A stretch of DNA of 64,000 nucleotides, taken from Sandaracinus amylolyticus (lineage in GTDB: Bacteria; Myxococcota_A; Polyangia; Polyangiales; Sandaracinaceae). The translations under genes and the position numbers were made by a program. The DNA is taken from contig NZ_CP011125.1 in the NCBI RefSeq assembly GCF_000737325.1, forward strand, positions 5,828,001 to 5,892,000, written 5' to 3'. Of this stretch, positions 54,263 through 64,000 are shown piece after piece (the stretch's first letter is position 1; every line of letters starts with the position of its first letter). Under the pieces are notes generated by a model. That model did no database searches. It was not told where the DNA came from and saw only the letters and a program-made list of their open reading frames with translations.

Positions 54263-57200
54263 ATGCGGTCCCCGCGTAACACAACGACCGGATTGCCCAC
54301 GCGACGCGAGCCCCGATCGCTCTCGTCCGAGTCGGACGCGATGCTCGAGGCGCTCTTCACGAGCCCCTCGGTCGGCCTCGCCTTGCTCGACGCGGATCTC
54401 CGCTTCGTGCGGGTCAACGCGCTGGTCGCCGCGCTCGACGGCGCGCCGATCGAGGCGCACGTCGGGCGCACCGTCGAGGACGTGATGCCGTCGCTCGCGC
54501 CCGTGCTCGTCCCGCTGCTGAAGGGCGTGCTCGAGCGTGGCGAGCCGCGGCTCGACGTCGCGCTGCCGACCGAGCGCGCGCAGGTGCTCGCGAGCTTCTT
54601 CCCGATGCGCCTGCGGGACGGCTCCCGCGGCGTCACGGTGGTCTGCGTCGATCGCAGCGGCTCGGGCGACGCGTCACTGCTCGGGCGCCTCCGCTTCGAC
54701 GATCTCGTCGCGCGCCTCTCGGCGGAGCTCGCGGAGGTCTCGCCCGAGCGCCTCGACCGCACGCTCGAGCAGTCGCTCGAAGCCGTCGCGACGACGTTCG
54801 ACGCCGATCGCGCGCTGGTGATGCTCCTCGACGCGCAGAGCGCGACGATCCGGCGCACGCACGAGTGGCATCGCGCCGACCTCGAGGCCCTGCCCGGGCT
54901 CGAGGTGCCGATGCCGGTCGCCGCGTTCCCGTGGGCGTCGGAGAAGCTCTTCGCGGGCCAGCCGGTGCTCTCCAGCAACTTCGAGGGCCTGCCCGAGCAC
55001 GCCGAGGCGGAGCGGCTGCTCCTGCACCTCGACGGGCCCGGCTCGACGGCGATCGAGCCGCTGCGCGTCGGTCCGCGCACGCTCGGCATCGTCGTGTTCT
55101 CGTGGCGCGAGCGGGCGCGCGACTGGACGCCGCTGCTGCGCGCTCGCCTGCGCACCGTCGCAGAGCTGATCGCGACCGCGCTCGATCGCCGCGAGCTCGA
55201 GCGCACCGCGCACGATCGGCTGCGCTTCGAGCAGCTGCTCTCGCGCATCTCGACGAGCCTGATCGAGGCGAGCGCGGCCCGCCTCGACGACGCGATCGGC
55301 TCCGCGCTGCGCATGCTCGCCCAGGCGATGGAGGTCGATCGCGCGTACGTCTACGAGATCGACGAGGAGACCGCGACCGCGCGCTCGGTGTACCAGCACG
55401 CCGAGCCGGGCGTGCCCGAGATCAAGACGCGCGTGTGGTCGTTCGCGAAAGACGCGGCGTGGGGCCTCGCCGAGCTCCGCGCCGGTCGTGCGCTCGTGGT
55501 CCCGCGCGTCGAGGAGCTGCCCGAGCGCGCGGCCGCCGAGCGCGACGTCCTGCTCGCGGGTGGCGTGCGCTCGCTGCTGATCGCGCCGATGCGCGTCGGC
55601 GATCGTCTGATCGGCATCGTCGGGACCGACACGCGCCGCGAGATCGCCTGGTCCGACGTCGTCGTCTCGCGCGCACAGCTCGTCGGCGAGATCTTCGCGA
55701 GCGCCGTCGATCGACGCCGCCTCGAGCGCCTCGCCGCGGAGCGCCAGCGGATCGACGCGCTGCTCGCGACGATCTCGACCGCGCTGATCGACGCGCCCGC
55801 GGAGCGCATCGACGAGGAGCTCGGCGGCGCGCTCGCGCGCATCTGCGTGGAGCTGGGCCTCGTGCGCGCCCTCGTCATGCGCTTCGATCGCGCGGCGAGC
55901 ACGTTCCGCGTGACCCACCACGCGGGCGCGCCGGCCGCGTTCGACGTCGGCGTCGATCAGCCGCGGAGCGAGCTCGAGGGCGCGCTCGCGCCGACGCTCT
56001 CGCGCGGCGTCCACCTCGTGCGCACCGCCGCGCTCCCTCCCGGGCGCCTGCGCGAGACGTGGGAGCGCCAAGGGATCGTGGGCGCGGCCGCCGCGGCGCT
56101 GCGCCGGCACGACGACGTCGTCGGCGCGCTCGTGTTCCTCTCTCGCGAGGAGCGCGCCTTCGAGGGCACGTTCCGCGCGCGCATCCTGCTGATGGAGGAC
56201 GTCGTCGCGCACGCGCTCGCACGCCGCGACGCCGAGCTCGCACGGCGCGCCGCGTTCGACGAGCTCGAGCGCATGAAGGCGCAGCTCGAGCGCGAGCGCG
56301 ACTACCTCCGCGAGGAGATCCGCGGCGAGCACGACGTGCACGCGATCGTCGCGCAGAGCGCGGCGCAGCAGCGCGTCATGACCAGCGTCGAGGCGGTCGC
56401 GTCGACCAGCGCGAGCGTGCTGGTGCGCGGCGAGACCGGCGTGGGCAAGGAGCTCATCGCGCGCGCCATCCACGCCCGCAGCCCGCGCGCCGAGCGCCCG
56501 CTCGTGAAGGTCGACTGCGCGTCGATCCCGCACGAGCTGTTCGAGCGCGAGTTCTTCGGACAGGTGCGCGGCGCGATCGCGGGCGCGCTCGAGGATCGCG
56601 TCGGGCGCTTCGAGCTCGCCGATCGCGGGACGCTCTTCCTCGACGAGGTCGGCGAGATTCCCCTCGAGATGCAGTCGAAGCTGCTCCGCGTCCTGCAGGA
56701 CGGCGCGCTCGAGCGCATCGGCGATCCGCGCACCCGGCGCGTCGACGTGCGCGTGATCGCCGCGACGAACCGCGACCTCGAGGCCGACGTCGCGGCGGGC
56801 CGCTTCCGGCGCGACCTCTACTACCGGCTCGGCGTGTTCCCGCTCGAGGTGCCTCCGCTCCGCGAGCGCGCCGAGGACGTGCTCCCGCTCGCGCGCTACT
56901 ACCTGCGGCGCTCCGTGAAGGCCCTCGGTCGTGGCCCCCTGGAGCTCACCCGCGTCCACGAGCGCCTGCTGATCGATCACGACTGGCCGGGCAACGTCCG
57001 CGAGCTCGCGAACGTGATCGAGCGCGCGGTGATCCTCTCCTCGGGCTCCGAGCTGCGGCTCGATCTCGCGATGCCCAAGCGCGCGCGCACCACGCCCGTC
57101 GCGACGCCGCCCGCGGTGGTCCCCAGCGCAGCGCGCGACGAGCCCGAGAAGCCCGCGCCGGCACCGATCCGCACCGAGAGCGAGCTGCGGGAGCTCGAGC

Positions 57201-57349
57201 GCGCGAACCTCCTCGCCGCCCTCGAGCGCGCAGGTGGGCGCATCGCGGGCCGTGGCGGTGCCGCCGAGGTGCTCGGCGTCCGTCCGTCCACACTTCGCGA
57301 TCGCATGCGCGCCTTCGGGATCGAAGCGCGGCATTACCGACGTTCGTAG
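54263..57349 (+). CDS. PAS-GAF-GAF-GAF-AAA+ regulator with degenerate sigma54 loop
   Basis: About 1028 residues from the ATG at 54263; a TTG at 54293 is possible. An N-terminal PAS domain (SPSVGLALLDADLRFVRVN) is followed by three GAF domains near 130-300, 320-480 and 490-650, then a coiled-coil. The AAA+ domain starts near 690: GETGVGKE, FLDEVGEIPLEMQSKLLR, and ATNRDLEADVAAGRFRRDLYYRL. In place of the GAFTGA loop is RGAIAGALED (Gly770-Ala775), losing the Phe and Thr that contact sigma54. A Fis-type HTH ends the protein (GRGGAAEVLGVRPSTLRDRM). It may work with another sigma factor, or as a repressor, as TyrR does. It precedes the Rsb module. Confidence 0.93.
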   Translation: MRSPRNTTTGLPTRREPRSLSSESDAMLEALFTSPSVGLALLDADLRFVRVNALVAALDGAPIEAHVGRTVEDVMPSLAPVLVPLLKGVLERGEPRLDVALPTERAQVLASFFPMRLRDGSRGVTVVCVDRSGSGDASLLGRLRFDDLVARLSAELAEVSPERLDRTLEQSLEAVATTFDADRALVMLLDAQSATIRRTHEWHRADLEALPGLEVPMPVAAFPWASEKLFAGQPVLSSNFEGLPEHAEAERLLLHLDGPGSTAIEPLRVGPRTLGIVVFSWRERARDWTPLLRARLRTVAELIATALDRRELERTAHDRLRFEQLLSRISTSLIEASAARLDDAIGSALRMLAQAMEVDRAYVYEIDEETATARSVYQHAEPGVPEIKTRVWSFAKDAAWGLAELRAGRALVVPRVEELPERAAAERDVLLAGGVRSLLIAPMRVGDRLIGIVGTDTRREIAWSDVVVSRAQLVGEIFASAVDRRRLERLAAERQRIDALLATISTALIDAPAERIDEELGGALARICVELGLVRALVMRFDRAASTFRVTHHAGAPAAFDVGVDQPRSELEGALAPTLSRGVHLVRTAALPPGRLRETWERQGIVGAAAAALRRHDDVVGALVFLSREERAFEGTFRARILLMEDVVAHALARRDAELARRAAFDELERMKAQLERERDYLREEIRGEHDVHAIVAQSAAQQRVMTSVEAVASTSASVLVRGETGVGKELIARAIHARSPRAERPLVKVDCASIPHELFEREFFGQVRGAIAGALEDRVGRFELADRGTLFLDEVGEIPLEMQSKLLRVLQDGALERIGDPRTRRVDVRVIAATNRDLEADVAAGRFRRDLYYRLGVFPLEVPPLRERAEDVLPLARYYLRRSVKALGRGPLELTRVHERLLIDHDWPGNVRELANVIERAVILSSGSELRLDLAMPKRARTTPVATPPAVVPSAARDEPEKPAPAPIRTESELRELERANLLAALERAGGRIAGRGGAAEVLGVRPSTLRDRMRAFGIEARHYRRS

Positions 57350-58344: not shown

Positions 58345-59280
58345 ATGGAGAGCACCGCGACGACGACCGACATCCACGCAGAGCTCCAGGCGCTGCGCGC
58401 CGAGCTCGCGCAGAAGCGCACGCTGGTCGAGCTCCTGCTCGACAACAACCCCGACGGGATCGCGATCCTCGGGGCGGACGGCACGATGAACACGAACGAG
58501 GTGGGCAGCCGCGTCCTCGGGGCCGTGCCGGCGAACACCGCGCCGGGCGACTGGTCCGAGGGCTTCGGCTACTTCGCGGCGGATCGCGTGACTCGCAAGT
58601 CGTTCGACGAGCTCCCGGCGGTGCGCGCCGCGCGCGGCGAGACGATCGTGGACGAGCTGCTCTACTGCGTGGGCGCGACGGCGCCGGACGGCGTGATGCT
58701 CTCGTGCTCGGCGCGCCCGCTCCCGGGCGGCGGATCGATCACGGTCTTCCGTGACGTGACCGAGCGCGTGAAGCTCGAGTCGGAGCTCGCGACGCGGAAC
58801 GACGCGCTCGCGAAGCGCGAGGAGGAGAACCGCGAGCTGATCGAGCGCCTGCGCGTCGCGCTCGACGAGCTCTCGACGCCGGTGCTCGAGGTCGCGGAGG
58901 ACGTGCTCGTGCTCCCGGTGATCGGCCTCGTCGACACCCAGCGCAGCGCCGCGATGTCGGAGCGCCTGCTCGCAGAGGTGGTGCGCACGCGCTCGAAGCA
59001 CGTGATCGTCGACCTCACCGGCGTCGAGCTGATCGACACCGGCACCGCGGATCGTTTCGCGAAGCTCGCGCGCGCGGTCGAGCTGCTCGGCGCGAGCTGC
59101 GTGCTGAGCGGCCTGCAGCCCGCGGTCGCGCAGACGCTCGTCGAGCTGGGCGTGGAGTTCTCCGGGCTCGACACGCAGCGCAACCTGCGCCACGCGCTCG
59201 AGCACACGATGCGCGCGCGGCGCGCGTTGAAGACGCGCGACCGTGAGCGCGAGCGCGGCACGGCCCGCGAGGGGCGCTGA
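58345..59280 (+). CDS. rsbR: RsbR-like sensor with PAS and STAS domains
   Basis: 311 residues. AGGGGAGG precedes the ATG at 58345. An N-terminal coiled-coil (HAELQALRAELAQKRTLVELLL) leads into a PAS domain (NNPDGIAILGADG...ITVFRDVTERVKLESEL). After a second coiled-coil comes a C-terminal STAS domain (about 170-290) with HVIVDLTGVELIDTGTADRF. Thr225 and Thr232 line up with the two threonines phosphorylated by RsbT in Bacillus RsbR. In stressosomes RsbR and RsbS form a capsule that holds RsbT until stress. The signal for this PAS domain is unknown. Confidence 0.88.
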   Translation: MESTATTTDIHAELQALRAELAQKRTLVELLLDNNPDGIAILGADGTMNTNEVGSRVLGAVPANTAPGDWSEGFGYFAADRVTRKSFDELPAVRAARGETIVDELLYCVGATAPDGVMLSCSARPLPGGGSITVFRDVTERVKLESELATRNDALAKREEENRELIERLRVALDELSTPVLEVAEDVLVLPVIGLVDTQRSAAMSERLLAEVVRTRSKHVIVDLTGVELIDTGTADRFAKLARAVELLGASCVLSGLQPAVAQTLVELGVEFSGLDTQRNLRHALEHTMRARRALKTRDRERERGTAREGR

Positions 59281-59284
59281 GCCG

Positions 59285-59929
59285 GTGCGGACGGGCGCTC
59301 GTACGAACGACGTCGAGCACGCGGTCGCGATCACGCTGCGCCGTTATCTCTCGGAGATCCTCGCCGACTCGGTGCGGCGTCGCGCCCAGGCGGCGCTCGG
59401 GATCGCCGAAGGATCGCTCGCCGTCGCGGATCTCTCGCGGCTCGTGCCCCGCCTCGAGCAGGGCGTGAAGCTCTTCGTCGACCCTGCGCTGCAGCCCGCG
59501 CTCATGCGCGAGCTCGCCGCGCTCGAAGGCCCGCGGCCGGTGCCGGCGCGCGAGTCGCACGCGATCACGACGGAGGAGGACATCTCGCGCGTGCGCATCC
59601 GGGCGCGCGAGCTCGCGCTCGAGCTCGGCGCGACGAGCCTCGGCGCGCAGCGCGCGGCGACGGTCACGAGCGAGCTCGCGCGCAACATCGTCGCGTACGC
59701 GCCGCCGGGCAGCGTCGATCTCGAGCCGGGACGCGGGGAGCGAACGCTCGCGATCCGCGCCGTCGATCGAGGCCCCGGGATCGCGATGCTCGACGAGGTG
59801 CTCGGCGGCGCGTACCGCAGCCGCACCGGGCTCGGGAAGGGCCTGCTCGGCGTGAAGCGGATCGCGCTGCGGTTCGAGGTGAAGACGGGTCCGAACGGGA
59901 CGACCGTGGAGACGGAGGTGGCGCTGTGA
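59285..59929 (+). CDS. rsbT: RsbT-like switch kinase with N-terminal extension
   Basis: 214 residues from a GTG at 59285, preceded by GAGGGG; a start at 59243 inside the previous gene is possible. The C-terminal 130 residues are an HATPase_c_2 kinase: N-box SELARNIV with Asn134, DRGPGIAML as G1, and TGLGKGLLGVKRI as G2. Typical RsbT is about 130 residues. Here about 85 extra residues (LRRYLSEILADSVRRRAQAALGI...LVPRLEQGVKLFV) precede it, a helical domain I cannot name. It should phosphorylate the STAS partners on either side. The stop overlaps the RsbS-like gene (GTGA). Confidence 0.85.
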   Translation: MRTGARTNDVEHAVAITLRRYLSEILADSVRRRAQAALGIAEGSLAVADLSRLVPRLEQGVKLFVDPALQPALMRELAALEGPRPVPARESHAITTEEDISRVRIRARELALELGATSLGAQRAATVTSELARNIVAYAPPGSVDLEPGRGERTLAIRAVDRGPGIAMLDEVLGGAYRSRTGLGKGLLGVKRIALRFEVKTGPNGTTVETEVAL

Positions 59930-60414
59930 GGGCGAGGACGACGACGACCTACGATCGGTCCGCGACGACGACGATCCCGATCCTCGAGCTCTGGGGCAAC
60001 CTCGTGGTGCCGCTCCAGGGCGAGATCCGCGACTCGCAGATGGACGAGCTCCGCGATCGTCTGCTCGCGCGGCTGCGCGATCGCGGCGCGCGCGGGCTCG
60101 TGATCGACGCCTCGGGCGTGTGGCTGCTCGACAGCCATCTCTGCTCGATGGTCGGTCGCATCGCGCGCGCGGCGCGCCTCATGGGCGCGGAGACGTTGCT
60201 CTGCGGGCTCGGCCCCGACGTGGTCACGACGCTGCTCGACATGGGCATCGAGCTCGAGGGCATCCGCACCGCGCTCGGCCTCGAGGAGGCGCTGGAGCAG
60301 CTCGGCGTGCACGCCGAGAGCCCCGACGAGGAGGACGACGTCTGGGACGAGCTCTTGGACGGGCGCGACGACGAGGACGAGGGTGAAGGCGAGCGCGACG
60401 CGCGCGATGCCTGA
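59926..60414 (+). CDS. rsbS: RsbS-like STAS antagonist
   Basis: 162 residues from a GTG overlapping the rsbT-like stop. A STAS domain covers about 15-125: IPILELWGNLVVPLQGEI, GLVIDASGVWLLDSHLCSM and TLLCGLGPDVVTTLLDMGIELEGI. Ser70 in LLDSHL aligns with the phosphorylated Ser59 of Bacillus RsbS. The last 40 residues are a very acidic tail (SPDEEDDVWDELLDG, then EDEGEGE) not found in RsbS and possibly a docking or solubility element. Gene order R-T-S differs from the Bacillus R-S-T order. Confidence 0.87.
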   Translation: MRARTTTTYDRSATTTIPILELWGNLVVPLQGEIRDSQMDELRDRLLARLRDRGARGLVIDASGVWLLDSHLCSMVGRIARAARLMGAETLLCGLGPDVVTTLLDMGIELEGIRTALGLEEALEQLGVHAESPDEEDDVWDELLDGRDDEDEGEGERDARDA

Positions 60415-60856
60415 CGGCGAGGCGCGCCGCGTCGTGTGCAGCGACGCGCGCGATCGCCTCGTCGCGTCGATCGTGGTGCGCGCGTTCGCGGGCTCCCTCG
60501 GGTTCCCGCCGCGCGCGTGCCTCGAGCTCGCGATCGCGGCCGCCGAGCTCGCGTCGAACGCGGTGCGGCACGGTGGTGGCGGCGTGCTCGAGGTGCGTGT
60601 GCTGCGCGACGGTGCGCGTGTGGGCGTCGAGCTCGCCTGCTCCGACGAGGGTCAGGGCATCCCCGACCCCGACGCGGCGGTGCGCGACGGCTGGTCGCGC
60701 GGTCGCGCGCTCGGCCCCGACGACCCGTGGCACGAGGGCCTGGGACGCGGGCTCGGCGCGGTGTCGCGCGCGGTCGACGAGCTGATGTTCGTGCCTGCGC
60801 GCGAGGGCCGTCACGTGGTGCGCGCGCGCCGCTGGATCCCGCGTTCGCGCGCTTGA
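60407..60856 (+). CDS. Second HATPase (RsbT/RsbW-like) of the module
   Basis: 149 residues from the ATG at 60407, overlapping the previous stop by 8 bases; a GTG at 60383 is an alternative. It is a small stand-alone GHKL ATPase: ELASNAVRHGGGG with Asn51, CSDEGQGIPDPD as G1 and GLGRGLGAVSRAV as G2. In Bacillus, RsbT has such a paralogue only in RsbW, the anti-sigma factor. Another possibility is the ATPase of an RsbX/SpoIIE-type output. No sigma factor gene is present, so the output is not visible here. Confidence 0.85.
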   Translation: MPDGEARRVVCSDARDRLVASIVVRAFAGSLGFPPRACLELAIAAAELASNAVRHGGGGVLEVRVLRDGARVGVELACSDEGQGIPDPDAAVRDGWSRGRALGPDDPWHEGLGRGLGAVSRAVDELMFVPAREGRHVVRARRWIPRSRA

Positions 60857-60865
60857 CGCCAGCCG

Positions 60866-61378
60866 ATGCCCAGCGTCACGCTCACCCGCGTGGAGAACGC
60901 AGTCCCGACGCCGATCGCTCGTCCGATGCCGGCCCCCACGGGGCTCGGGATCGAGCCCGGGACGTGGGTCTCCCGGCTGACCTGGGCGATCCTCTTCGCG
61001 CTGCCGACGGCGGTGTTCATCACGGCCGCGTGGCTCACGCCGAACCCCGAGGGGCACGGCACGCACACGCAGCTCGGCCTTCCGCCGTGCGGCTTCCTCG
61101 TGTTCACCGGGTACCCGTGCCCGGGCTGCGGCCTCACGACCGCGTTCTCGTACATGATCCGCCTCGACGTGCTCGGGGCGTGGCACGCGAACCCGTTCGG
61201 CATCGCGCTCTTCCTCGCGGTCGCGCTGTTCATCCCGTTCGCGGCGCTCGGCTTCGTGCGCGGCTGGTCGGTGGTGTCGGCGCTCGATCGCGTGCACGCC
61301 GAGAAAGTCGCGATCGTGCTCGCGCTGCTCTCCGTGATCTCGTGGGTCACGCGCATCGCGCTGATCTCGCTCGCCTGA
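60866..61378 (+). CDS. DUF2752 membrane protein
   Basis: 170 residues. A Pro-rich N-terminus is followed by three or four hydrophobic segments. The hallmark is PCGFLVFTGYPCPGCGLTTAF, in which the CPxCGxTT motif defines DUF2752, then LGAWHANPFGIALFLAVALF. DUF2752 proteins are short inner-membrane proteins of unknown role. This gene starts 9 bases after the HATPase gene and overlaps the putative methyltransferase start, so it may belong to the same transcript. Confidence 0.88.
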   Translation: MPSVTLTRVENAVPTPIARPMPAPTGLGIEPGTWVSRLTWAILFALPTAVFITAAWLTPNPEGHGTHTQLGLPPCGFLVFTGYPCPGCGLTTAFSYMIRLDVLGAWHANPFGIALFLAVALFIPFAALGFVRGWSVVSALDRVHAEKVAIVLALLSVISWVTRIALISLA

Positions 61379-62157
61379 GCGCGCCCGCGCTCGACGCGCT
61401 GCCGGCGTCGCTCGCATCGCGTCACCTCGCGCGCCCCGACGATCCCGACACGCGCGCCTGGCTCGATGCGAACGCATCGCGTCCCCACGGCGCGCTCGCG
61501 ACCGCGCTGCATCGCGCGCTGCGCCGCGTCGCGTCGGACTACGACGTCGACGCGTGGCTCGGGATGCACCCGATGCACCTGCTCGGCACGACGTCGTGGC
61601 GCGCGCTGCTCGGCGCCGAGCACGTCGGCGGGGCGCTGCTCGACGTCGGTGCGGGCAACGGCGACGTCACCGCGACGCTCGCGCCGCTCTTCGATCGCGT
61701 CGTCGCGACCGAGACGTCGCGCCCGATGGTGCGTCGCTTGCGCGCGAAGGGCTTCGACGCGCACCCGATCGATCTCGCGACCGAGCGGCTGCCCGATGCG
61801 ACGACGCGCTTCCGCGCCGTCGCGCTGCTCGACGTGCTCGATCGCTGCGCGCGCCCGCGCTCGCTGCTCGACGCCGCGCTCTCGGCGCTCGAGCCGCGCG
61901 GCGCGCTGATCATCGCGTCACCGCTGCCGATGCGACCGCACGTCGACGTGGGCGGGCACACCGTCGATCCCGACGAGCCGCTCGGCGTCGAGGGTGATGG
62001 CTTCGAGGACGCGCTGGTGTCGCTGGTCGACACGCTGCTCGCGCCGCGCGGCCTCGAGGTCGAGCGGTGGACCCGCGCGCCCTATCTCGCGCGGGGCGAT
62101 CGCGACGCGCCGCTCCACGTGCTCGACGACGTGGTGCTCGTCGCGCGTCGTCGCTGA
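61342..62157 (+). CDS. METTL9/DREV-family methyltransferase homologue
   Basis: About 271 residues if the GTG at 61342 is used; no ATG occurs in the first 75 codons, so the start is uncertain. The SAM motif is LLDVGAGNGDVTATL (GAGNG at 103-107). The whole domain follows animal METTL9 (DREV family): ATETSRPMVRRL, LLDVLDRCARPRSLL, an ASPLPMRPHV block followed by a GGH, PDEPLGVEGDGFEDALVSL, VERWTRAPYLARGD and LDDVVLVARR. These blocks, rather than just motif I, are what separates the family from ordinary methyltransferases. METTL9 makes 1-methylhistidine at His-x-His sites. The bacterial substrate is unknown. It overlaps the DUF2752 gene. Confidence 0.83.
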   Translation: MGHAHRADLARLSAPALDALPASLASRHLARPDDPDTRAWLDANASRPHGALATALHRALRRVASDYDVDAWLGMHPMHLLGTTSWRALLGAEHVGGALLDVGAGNGDVTATLAPLFDRVVATETSRPMVRRLRAKGFDAHPIDLATERLPDATTRFRAVALLDVLDRCARPRSLLDAALSALEPRGALIIASPLPMRPHVDVGGHTVDPDEPLGVEGDGFEDALVSLVDTLLAPRGLEVERWTRAPYLARGDRDAPLHVLDDVVLVARRR

Positions 62158-62198: not shown

Positions 62199-64000
62199 TC
62201 AGGCGTCCTGCGCGACCGACTCGATGCGCGACGCGTCGTCCGCACGACCGAGCGCGCGCAGACACGCCGCGAGCATGCGCATGGCGGTCGTCTCGCCCTT
62301 GCGATCCCCGGCACGCCGCGCGAGCGCCAGCGCGCGCAGCGCGAGCCGCACCGCGCCCGTCGCGTCCCCACCGCGCAGCGCGACGGCGCCCTCCGCCAGC
62401 GGCTGCCGCGGATCCGCGTCCTTCGCCGCCCCGCGATACCCCCGCGCCTTCGCGAGCGAGAGCCGCGCCGCGCCGAGATCGCCGCGCATCAGATCCGCGA
62501 GCGCACGGAAGCGCGACACCGCGGCCATGTCGCTGCCCGACGCGACCGCGCGCTGCAGCAGCTGATCGAGCGCGACGAGATCGTGCGAGCGCACCGCCTC
62601 CTCCGCGGCCGCCGCGAACGACGAGCGACGATCGTCCTCCTCGCCGCGCGAGTCGATCACGCCCGACTGCGTCGACGCGAGATCGTGGGCCGCGAGCGAG
62701 ACCTGCTCCGTCGGCGGCTCGGTGTCGCGCACCGGGTGCTTGCCCGTGCCCTCGAGCTCGTCGAGCGCGATCTCGGCAGAGGGCGGCGCCGCGTCCTCCT
62801 CGTCCCAGTCGGACTTGGGCGGCACGGTCGCCGACGCGCGCGAGAGCGCATCGACGTCGTGCGACGCGCCCGTGCCGAGCCGGCCGAGCAGCATCGCGAT
62901 CCGCGACGCCGCGCGCCGGTAGCCCGTCTCCAGCGCGGCGCGACCGATCTCCATCAGCCGCGCGCTGCCGCGTTCCTCGAGCCCGCCTTCGATCTCGTAG
63001 TACGCGAGCTCGGCGCGCAGCGAAGGCAGCGCGACGTCGTCGGCACCTCGCTCGAGCAGTGCCTCCGCGACGAAGCGATGCAGCTCGGCCGCGCGCGCGG
63101 GAGGCATGCCCTGCACGACGAACCGGCGCAGGAACGACGAGCTCGGGTGCGGCCGCATCACGCCGTGCGGCGCCGCGCCGGCGGGCCATCCACCGTCGGG
63201 CGAGAGCCACGCCTCGCGCGCGAGCCGATCGAGCGCGCGCGCCCTCGCCTTCTCGCTCACTCCGTCGCGCGACGCGACCGCCTCGATCAGCTCGCGCGTC
63301 GCGCCCTCGGGCGACACGCAGACCGCCTCGAGCAGACGGCGCGGCTCGTCCTCGAGCCGCGACATCCGCTCGTCGACGACCTCCTCGAGCGGGATCGCGC
63401 TCATCCCGCCGCGCGGCGCGCCGCGCCACACGAACCCGTCGCCCTCGACGACGAGGTCCCCCGACGCGATCAGCGCGCGCGCGACCTCGACCACGCCGAG
63501 CGGGGTCTCGCCGCCGAGCACCGCGATGCGGCGCGCGAGCTCGGGATCCGTCGCGTCACCGAGCACCGTCTGCGCGACCGCGCGCGCGTCCGACGTGCGC
63601 AGCGGCGGCAGCACGAGCTCGCGCACCGGCTCCGCGAGACCGGTCGGGAGCTTCACGTCGACGGGATACCGCGCGATCAGCGCGATCGGCGCGCCGATCG
63701 CGCGCGCACCGAGCAGCACGTCGAGGCTCGCCGCGTCGACCATCGCGAGCGGCGTGAGGAACACCCAGCTGCGCGCGTCGCGCCCGCCATCACCGACGCG
63801 CGAGAGCAGCGTCGCGAGCGCGTCCGCGACGGCATCGCACGGAGGCAGACCGCCGCGCAGCGTCACGCGCAGCACGCGTCCCGCGCTGCGCCCCGCCGCG
63901 TCGTCTCCGCACGCCGCGATCACCGCGTCGTCCGCGCCGAGCGTCCGCCCGAGCGCGTAGCGCAGGCTCGCGAGCGGCGCGATGCCGCCCGCCGCGCTCC
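62199..64000 (-). CDS. Large STAND/TPR-type regulatory protein, C-terminal 600 residues (runs off the right edge)
   Basis: The frame is open to the window edge. An in-frame GTG at 63923 could start it, but the preceding 25 codons (APLASLRYALGRTLGADDA) continue a protein-like pattern, so I treat it as partial. The visible N-terminal part looks like the second half of an AAA/STAND ATPase: WVFLTPLAMVDAASLDVLLG as a Walker B/sensor-like strand, then APIALIARYPV and LPPLRTSDARAVAQTVLG. Winged-helix-like and TPR-like helices follow (LHRFVAEALLERGADDVALPSLRAELAYYE). In the middle is an acidic linker (SDWDEEDAAPPSAEIALDELEG), and the last 150 residues are TPR-like (DAARLSLAKARG-type helices). Myxobacterial kinases often carry such C-termini. 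Confidence 0.7.
   Translation of the reverse strand, partial: SAAGGIAPLASLRYALGRTLGADDAVIAACGDDAAGRSAGRVLRVTLRGGLPPCDAVADALATLLSRVGDGGRDARSWVFLTPLAMVDAASLDVLLGARAIGAPIALIARYPVDVKLPTGLAEPVRELVLPPLRTSDARAVAQTVLGDATDPELARRIAVLGGETPLGVVEVARALIASGDLVVEGDGFVWRGAPRGGMSAIPLEEVVDERMSRLEDEPRRLLEAVCVSPEGATRELIEAVASRDGVSEKARARALDRLAREAWLSPDGGWPAGAAPHGVMRPHPSSSFLRRFVVQGMPPARAAELHRFVAEALLERGADDVALPSLRAELAYYEIEGGLEERGSARLMEIGRAALETGYRRAASRIAMLLGRLGTGASHDVDALSRASATVPPKSDWDEEDAAPPSAEIALDELEGTGKHPVRDTEPPTEQVSLAAHDLASTQSGVIDSRGEEDDRRSSFAAAAEEAVRSHDLVALDQLLQRAVASGSDMAAVSRFRALADLMRGDLGAARLSLAKARGYRGAAKDADPRQPLAEGAVALRGGDATGAVRLALRALALARRAGDRKGETTAMRMLAACLRALGRADDASRIESVAQDA

Follow-up and report, generated by a model that had tools for sequence, protein, structure and literature searches.

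A bacterial branch of the METTL9 family in the order Polyangiales and its predicted protein-histidine methyltransferase in Sandaracinus amylolyticus

Overview

A stretch of 64,000 nucleotides from the genome of the soil-type bacterium Sandaracinus amylolyticus (NZ_CP011125.1, positions 5,828,001 to 5,892,000; here called the window) encodes a protein of 271 aa that is placed by sequence comparison in the DREV/METTL9 family. The gene is, on balance, best read as a bacterial orthologue of METTL9, with a product predicted by analogy to be a SAM-dependent protein-histidine N-pi-methyltransferase whose target is probably a His-x-His-like stretch (HxH), with a shifted target preference. METTL9 makes most of the 1-methylhistidine of mammals, though there is as yet no agreement on where it arose or on its central role. 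The proteins described here form a new bacterial branch of METTL9, the family itself being already in Pfam. The initial annotation held that a role in bacteria had not been described, and this agrees with the open-access METTL9 papers found (a 2026 review included), which mention eukaryotic orthologues only and no bacterial members; nothing was found in the open-access literature linking METTL9 with myxobacteria. With METTL9 present in about a quarter of one bacterial order, an enzyme so far described in eukaryotes only could be studied in bacteria, where smaller proteomes could allow its targets to be catalogued completely. The bacterial proteins also provide an outgroup for METTL9 evolution and a natural series of substrate-loop variants.

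The gene and its reading frame

The features of the gene and of its upstream neighbour are listed in Table 1. Comparison with the gene of a congener showed the ORF to be retained, with 54 of 77 base differences occurring at third codon positions and a dN/dS of 0.18; because of this third-position bias and low ratio, the frame is a genuine gene under purifying selection. We infer the GTG at 61342 to be the start codon of the DREV gene. A GTG is located at the equivalent position of the congener's methyltransferase gene, no clear ribosome-binding site was seen for the 61342 start, and in-frame ATG codons are absent before codon 75. Profile searching of the host genome (a single contig of 10,327,335 bases) found the full-length DREV gene in single copy, with two further matches below cut-off.

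Table 1. Coordinates of the methyltransferase gene, its predicted functional sites and the overlapping upstream gene (positions within the window)
Feature	Position	Strand	Remarks
DUF2752 membrane protein gene, overlapping upstream neighbour	60866..61378	+	PF10825, 55.4 bits
DREV/METTL9-family methyltransferase gene	61342..62157	+	271 aa; putative GTG start, TGA stop
SAM-binding motif I, DVGAGNGDVT region (human D151-G157 block)	61642..61671	+	D, G, G invariant in 44 bacterial sequences
Glu124 codon, equivalent to human E174 (SAM ribose)	61711..61713	+	Invariant, 44/44
D164-V-L-D167-R168-C169 codons, equivalent to human N210-L-L-D213-R214-C215, catalytic histidine pocket	61831..61848	+	N210 is Asp here
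Post-II block RAPYLARGDRD, equivalent to human RLPYLCEGDMY (Y295 and D300 kept; C297 replaced by Ala)	approx. 62071..62103	+	By alignment
L-H-V-L-D-D codons, equivalent to human Y305-Y306-V-L308-D-D (Y306 replaced by His)	approx. 62116..62133	+	By alignment

Assignment to the METTL9 family

The protein matches PF05219 (DREV) with 130.6 bits (E 7.6e-38; Pfam gathering cut-off 26 bits) over residues 20-268, covering profile positions 8-263 of 265. General and small-molecule methyltransferase models lie far below this: the best of the general ones (Methyltransf_11, compared alongside Methyltransf_23 and Methyltransf_25) reaches at most 36 bits, and the best NCBIfam match, TIGR04345 (ovoA_Cterm), gives 32 bits over residues 149-197 only, below its cut-off of 170 bits. 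A sequence search of the PDB returned human METTL9 (98.9 bits, E 3.6e-27) and Ostreococcus METTL9 (94.2 bits), followed by METTL27 at 25.5 bits. Using a profile of the bacterial family, METTL9 scores 212 bits and the next family 39 bits.

An AlphaFold2 model was built from three sequences, with a pLDDT of 80-92 in the core and below 50 in the N-terminal third and the 247-261 loop, low-scoring regions which hold part of the substrate groove. In a Foldseek search with this model, METTL9 structures ranked highest, at E values from 1e-16 to 5e-14 against 3e-8 for the next family; the top match was METTL9 of Ostreococcus tauri (8bvi). VIA-align gave METTL9 Z scores of 19.9-22.7 (next chain 17.4). 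The class I methyltransferase fold is in itself widespread, and the assignment is made because of the margin in fold score together with the full-length sequence match, not on account of this fold alone. The identification of 61342-62157 as a METTL9-family homologue, proposed initially from the letters of the sequence, is thus borne out by both profile and fold, including the comparison of the predicted structure with human METTL9. The blocks quoted in support of that proposal (LLDVGAGNGDVT, LLDVLDRCARPRSLL, PLPMRPHVDVGG, ALVSL, VERWTRAPYLARGD and LDDVVLV) are all present in the protein, and all are conserved in the family with the exception of ALVSL, which corresponds to QVNSL in the human protein.

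Conservation of the catalytic site and of the substrate groove

Residues were compared in an alignment of 44 bacterial sequences, using the numbering of the human METTL9 structure paper (PMC10073072). D151, G153, E174, D213 and R214 are invariant, and N210 is kept in 41 of 44; further along, Y295 (42/42), L308 (41/42) and a Cys or Ser at position 297 (39/42) are nearly constant, with D300 (29/42) and Y306 (24/42) more variable. In human METTL9, E174 contacts the SAM ribose, the E174A change inactivates the enzyme, and D213, the Asp of an N-x-x-D-R motif, binds N3 of the imidazole (PMC10073072). By analogy, histidine N-pi chemistry is likely for the bacterial proteins. As a seven-beta-strand enzyme, the protein would move the methyl group of SAM to N-pi (N1) of a protein histidine. 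Going by the human structures, Glu124 (E174) would hold the SAM ribose, Asp167 (D213) would hold N3 of the imidazole and so free N1 to attack the methyl group, and the counterparts of Tyr Y295 and Arg R214 would stack on the imidazole ring.

Relative to human METTL9, a protein-L-histidine N-pros-methyltransferase to which it is alike over its whole length in sequence and fold, the S. amylolyticus protein is identical at E174, D213, R214 and Y295 and also retains M126, D300 and L308. It differs in its bacterial host, in the changes N210D, C297A, Y306H, G124H and V241P, and in having no established N-terminal signal-like segment. At N210, which belongs to the SAM carboxylate site and the pocket, the Asp is found in this protein and in that of its congener, a deviation at one residue, and the residues contacting the substrate are altered more here than in its relatives. 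Overall identity of human METTL9 to one bacterial homologue (L004) is 39.3%, compared with 36.7% to the Ostreococcus enzyme (OtMETTL9), a proven HxH methyltransferase (PMC12269839); the S. amylolyticus protein and Ostreococcus METTL9 share 34.5% identity over 258 aligned positions. The Ser of Ostreococcus METTL9 at the C297 position is also found in many bacterial copies. Unlike the bacterial proteins, however, the algal enzyme retains R93-G94-x-M96 (human R123-G124-x-M126), whereas R123-G124 is replaced in all bacterial sequences, mostly by Thr/Met/Ala-Tyr/His. Because of this replacement, the bacterial branch would be expected to prefer another 'x' or another flanking residue. Examination of the groove gave a divided answer on the METTL9 substrate-binding residues. 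The catalytic residues are in place together with much of the histidine pocket, and this check did not contradict the initial annotation, but the surroundings of 'x' and of the H-2 position are altered, more so in this species than in its relatives: of the contact residues there, M126, D300 and L308 are retained and G124, C297 and Y306 are replaced.

These changes could also be taken to mean that the branch consists of METTL9-fold protein-histidine methyltransferases lacking HxH recognition, acting on one specific histidine context or a dedicated protein, with the bacterial loop (T/M-Y/H-P/D-M/L) setting the target. This seems unlikely, if still worth considering: in the human enzyme the replaced G124 is in contact with the S-1 residue, Pro stands in place of V241 in 37 of the 44 sequences, Y306 is frequently lost, and the fly and algal METTL9 enzymes already differ in specificity (PMC12269839), yet much of the H-2 pocket (Y295, C/S297, L308 and often Y306) is retained in most bacterial sequences.

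Similarity to ovothiol-type enzymes

After METTL9, the family with the next highest score against the bacterial-family profile is the 5-selenohistidine methyltransferase OvsM (39 bits), with OvoM and OvoA further down among other methyltransferases. The match to these three is centred on N-x-x-D-R, which there reads NLIDR. The C-terminal domain of OvsM/OvoM/OvoA resembles METTL9 in carrying N-L-I-D-R at the corresponding alignment site and in methylating an imidazole nitrogen; it differs in acting on small-molecule substrates, in scoring only about 30-39 bits, and in that its alignment ends before the METTL9 C-terminal block. Among generic methyltransferases of related genomes with readable alignments, Asp-Arg is absent at the motif site (VLEH, VIEH, VLVY and similar). 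We infer from these alignments that N-x-x-D-R is common to METTL9 and OvsM/OvoM/OvoA, by common ancestry or convergence, and the motif may be a general marker of imidazole N-pi-methyltransferases. No open-access paper making the connection between METTL9 and OvoA was found.

The shared motif, together with ovoA_Cterm being the top NCBIfam match, raises the question of a small-molecule imidazole N-methyltransferase resembling OvoM/OvsM, with free histidine, a histidine-derived metabolite or a peptide natural product as its substrate. Such a function is improbable, given that the likeness to METTL9 runs from end to end of the protein, takes in the peptide-binding Post-II block and is far stronger (212 versus 39 bits), and that the genes show no consistent biosynthetic neighbourhood. 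Ovothiol-type (OvoA) enzymes were not detected above cut-off in the genome or in 57 relatives, which makes thiohistidine an unlikely substrate.

Distribution and origin of the gene

Full-length matches were distinguished from those covering the SAM domain only (around profile positions 90-190). Of 184 Polyangiales genomes, 52 have a full-length DREV gene, always as one copy, and these represent 33 of the 84 genera; no full-length match was obtained in the other orders of the phylum (379-genome phylum sample). A tree of 44 bacterial and two eukaryotic sequences tracks the host families, requiring six label changes (minimum five; shuffled mean 23.8). Since the tree follows the host families, the gene is, by its phylogeny, of long standing in the order, where it has been passed on mainly by vertical descent, with losses.

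That the order acquired the gene horizontally from a eukaryote, as opposed to transfer from bacteria to eukaryotes or a common source, appears rather doubtful. Its patchy presence within the order and its absence from the remaining phylum sample would fit such an event, but the agreement of the tree with host families means that any transfer would be at least as old as the families of the order, the gene is under purifying selection within the genus, and two eukaryotic sequences are too few to give a direction. DREV genes may also be present in other phyla, where sampling was sparse, because only one protein was searched against the named genomes, with no more than three loci found; one of these, in Dojkabacteria (L006), is a match to the SAM domain only. 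A full-length relative was not found among viral contigs or plasmids.

Candidate substrates

The codon pattern for HxHxH occurs 114 times in the genome, compared with 93 in the reversed control, and is not clearly enriched. The genome encodes three cation efflux transporters and one ZIP transporter. One of the cation efflux transporters (G000:C1:5252245, L123; probable GTG start) possesses a His-rich N-terminus, MGAHHDHHHHDHDHAHDHGHDHAAE, containing HAH and HGH. This N-terminus is put forward as the first candidate, since its transporter family is one that human METTL9 acts on, ZNT and ZIP transporters being among the human targets (PMC12269839). As a guess by analogy, the substrate class of the METTL9-type enzymes may be metal-binding histidine stretches such as the MGAHHDHHHHDHDHAHDHGHDHAAE N-terminus. 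His-rich N-termini of cation efflux proteins are also common in bacteria lacking METTL9. Tentatively, the METTL9 long inherited in the order might introduce 1-methylhistidine into metal-binding histidine stretches, with a target preference of its own and by an N-x-x-D-R solution in common with ovothiol-type enzymes. If so, protein 1-methylhistidine at such stretches would be a mark extending beyond eukaryotes.

Two other candidates were set aside. The GHAH in the N-terminus of the methyltransferase itself is GDAG in the congener and is attributed to chance. Long repeats of the CACGCT type were noted in L109 (G000:C1:2900000-2918000), around 2907135-2908500 and 2911289-2911357, reading as (His-Ala)n, (Thr-Leu)n or other dipeptides depending on the frame; as a source of an HxH protein these repeats (2.907-2.911 Mb) were rejected, being probably intergenic, non-coding or alternative-frame repeats.

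Gene neighbourhood

An overlap with a DUF2752 membrane protein gene had been pointed out initially and was confirmed, measuring 37 bp (61342-61378). A DUF2752 gene is also located directly upstream in another genus of the family of S. amylolyticus (L058), the arrangement occurring in only part of that family, and an Endo_dU gene is a neighbour in two relatives of the same family. The overlap gives no indication of function. In family f2, the recurring neighbours are a GMC oxidoreductase, PhoX, DUF2891 and an Imm5-like gene, the last of which separates PhoX from the methyltransferase gene and is read from the opposite strand. HxH is absent from the conserved neighbour genes examined. The neighbours were therefore discarded as a functional clue or operon partners, as their composition varies from family to family, the Imm5-like gene is on the opposite strand and HxH is lacking. 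This small, divergent Imm5-like gene is situated approximately 1.4-0.8 kb upstream of the DREV stop in L041, L043, L044, L039, L051 and L005, its match being marginal (24.4 against a cut-off of 25).

Several other genes were observed in the window. A sigma-54 activator with PAS, several GAF domains and a Fis-type HTH is encoded at about 54300-57349 (+). Genes for PAS+STAS, HATPase, STAS and HATPase_c_2 proteins follow at 58345-60856 (+); they resemble a stress module of the RsbR/S/T/W type and end just 5' of the DUF2752 gene. Convergent with the methyltransferase gene, 62199-63998 (-) encodes a large protein with a weak TPR match only, which four genomes in the family retain in this vicinity.
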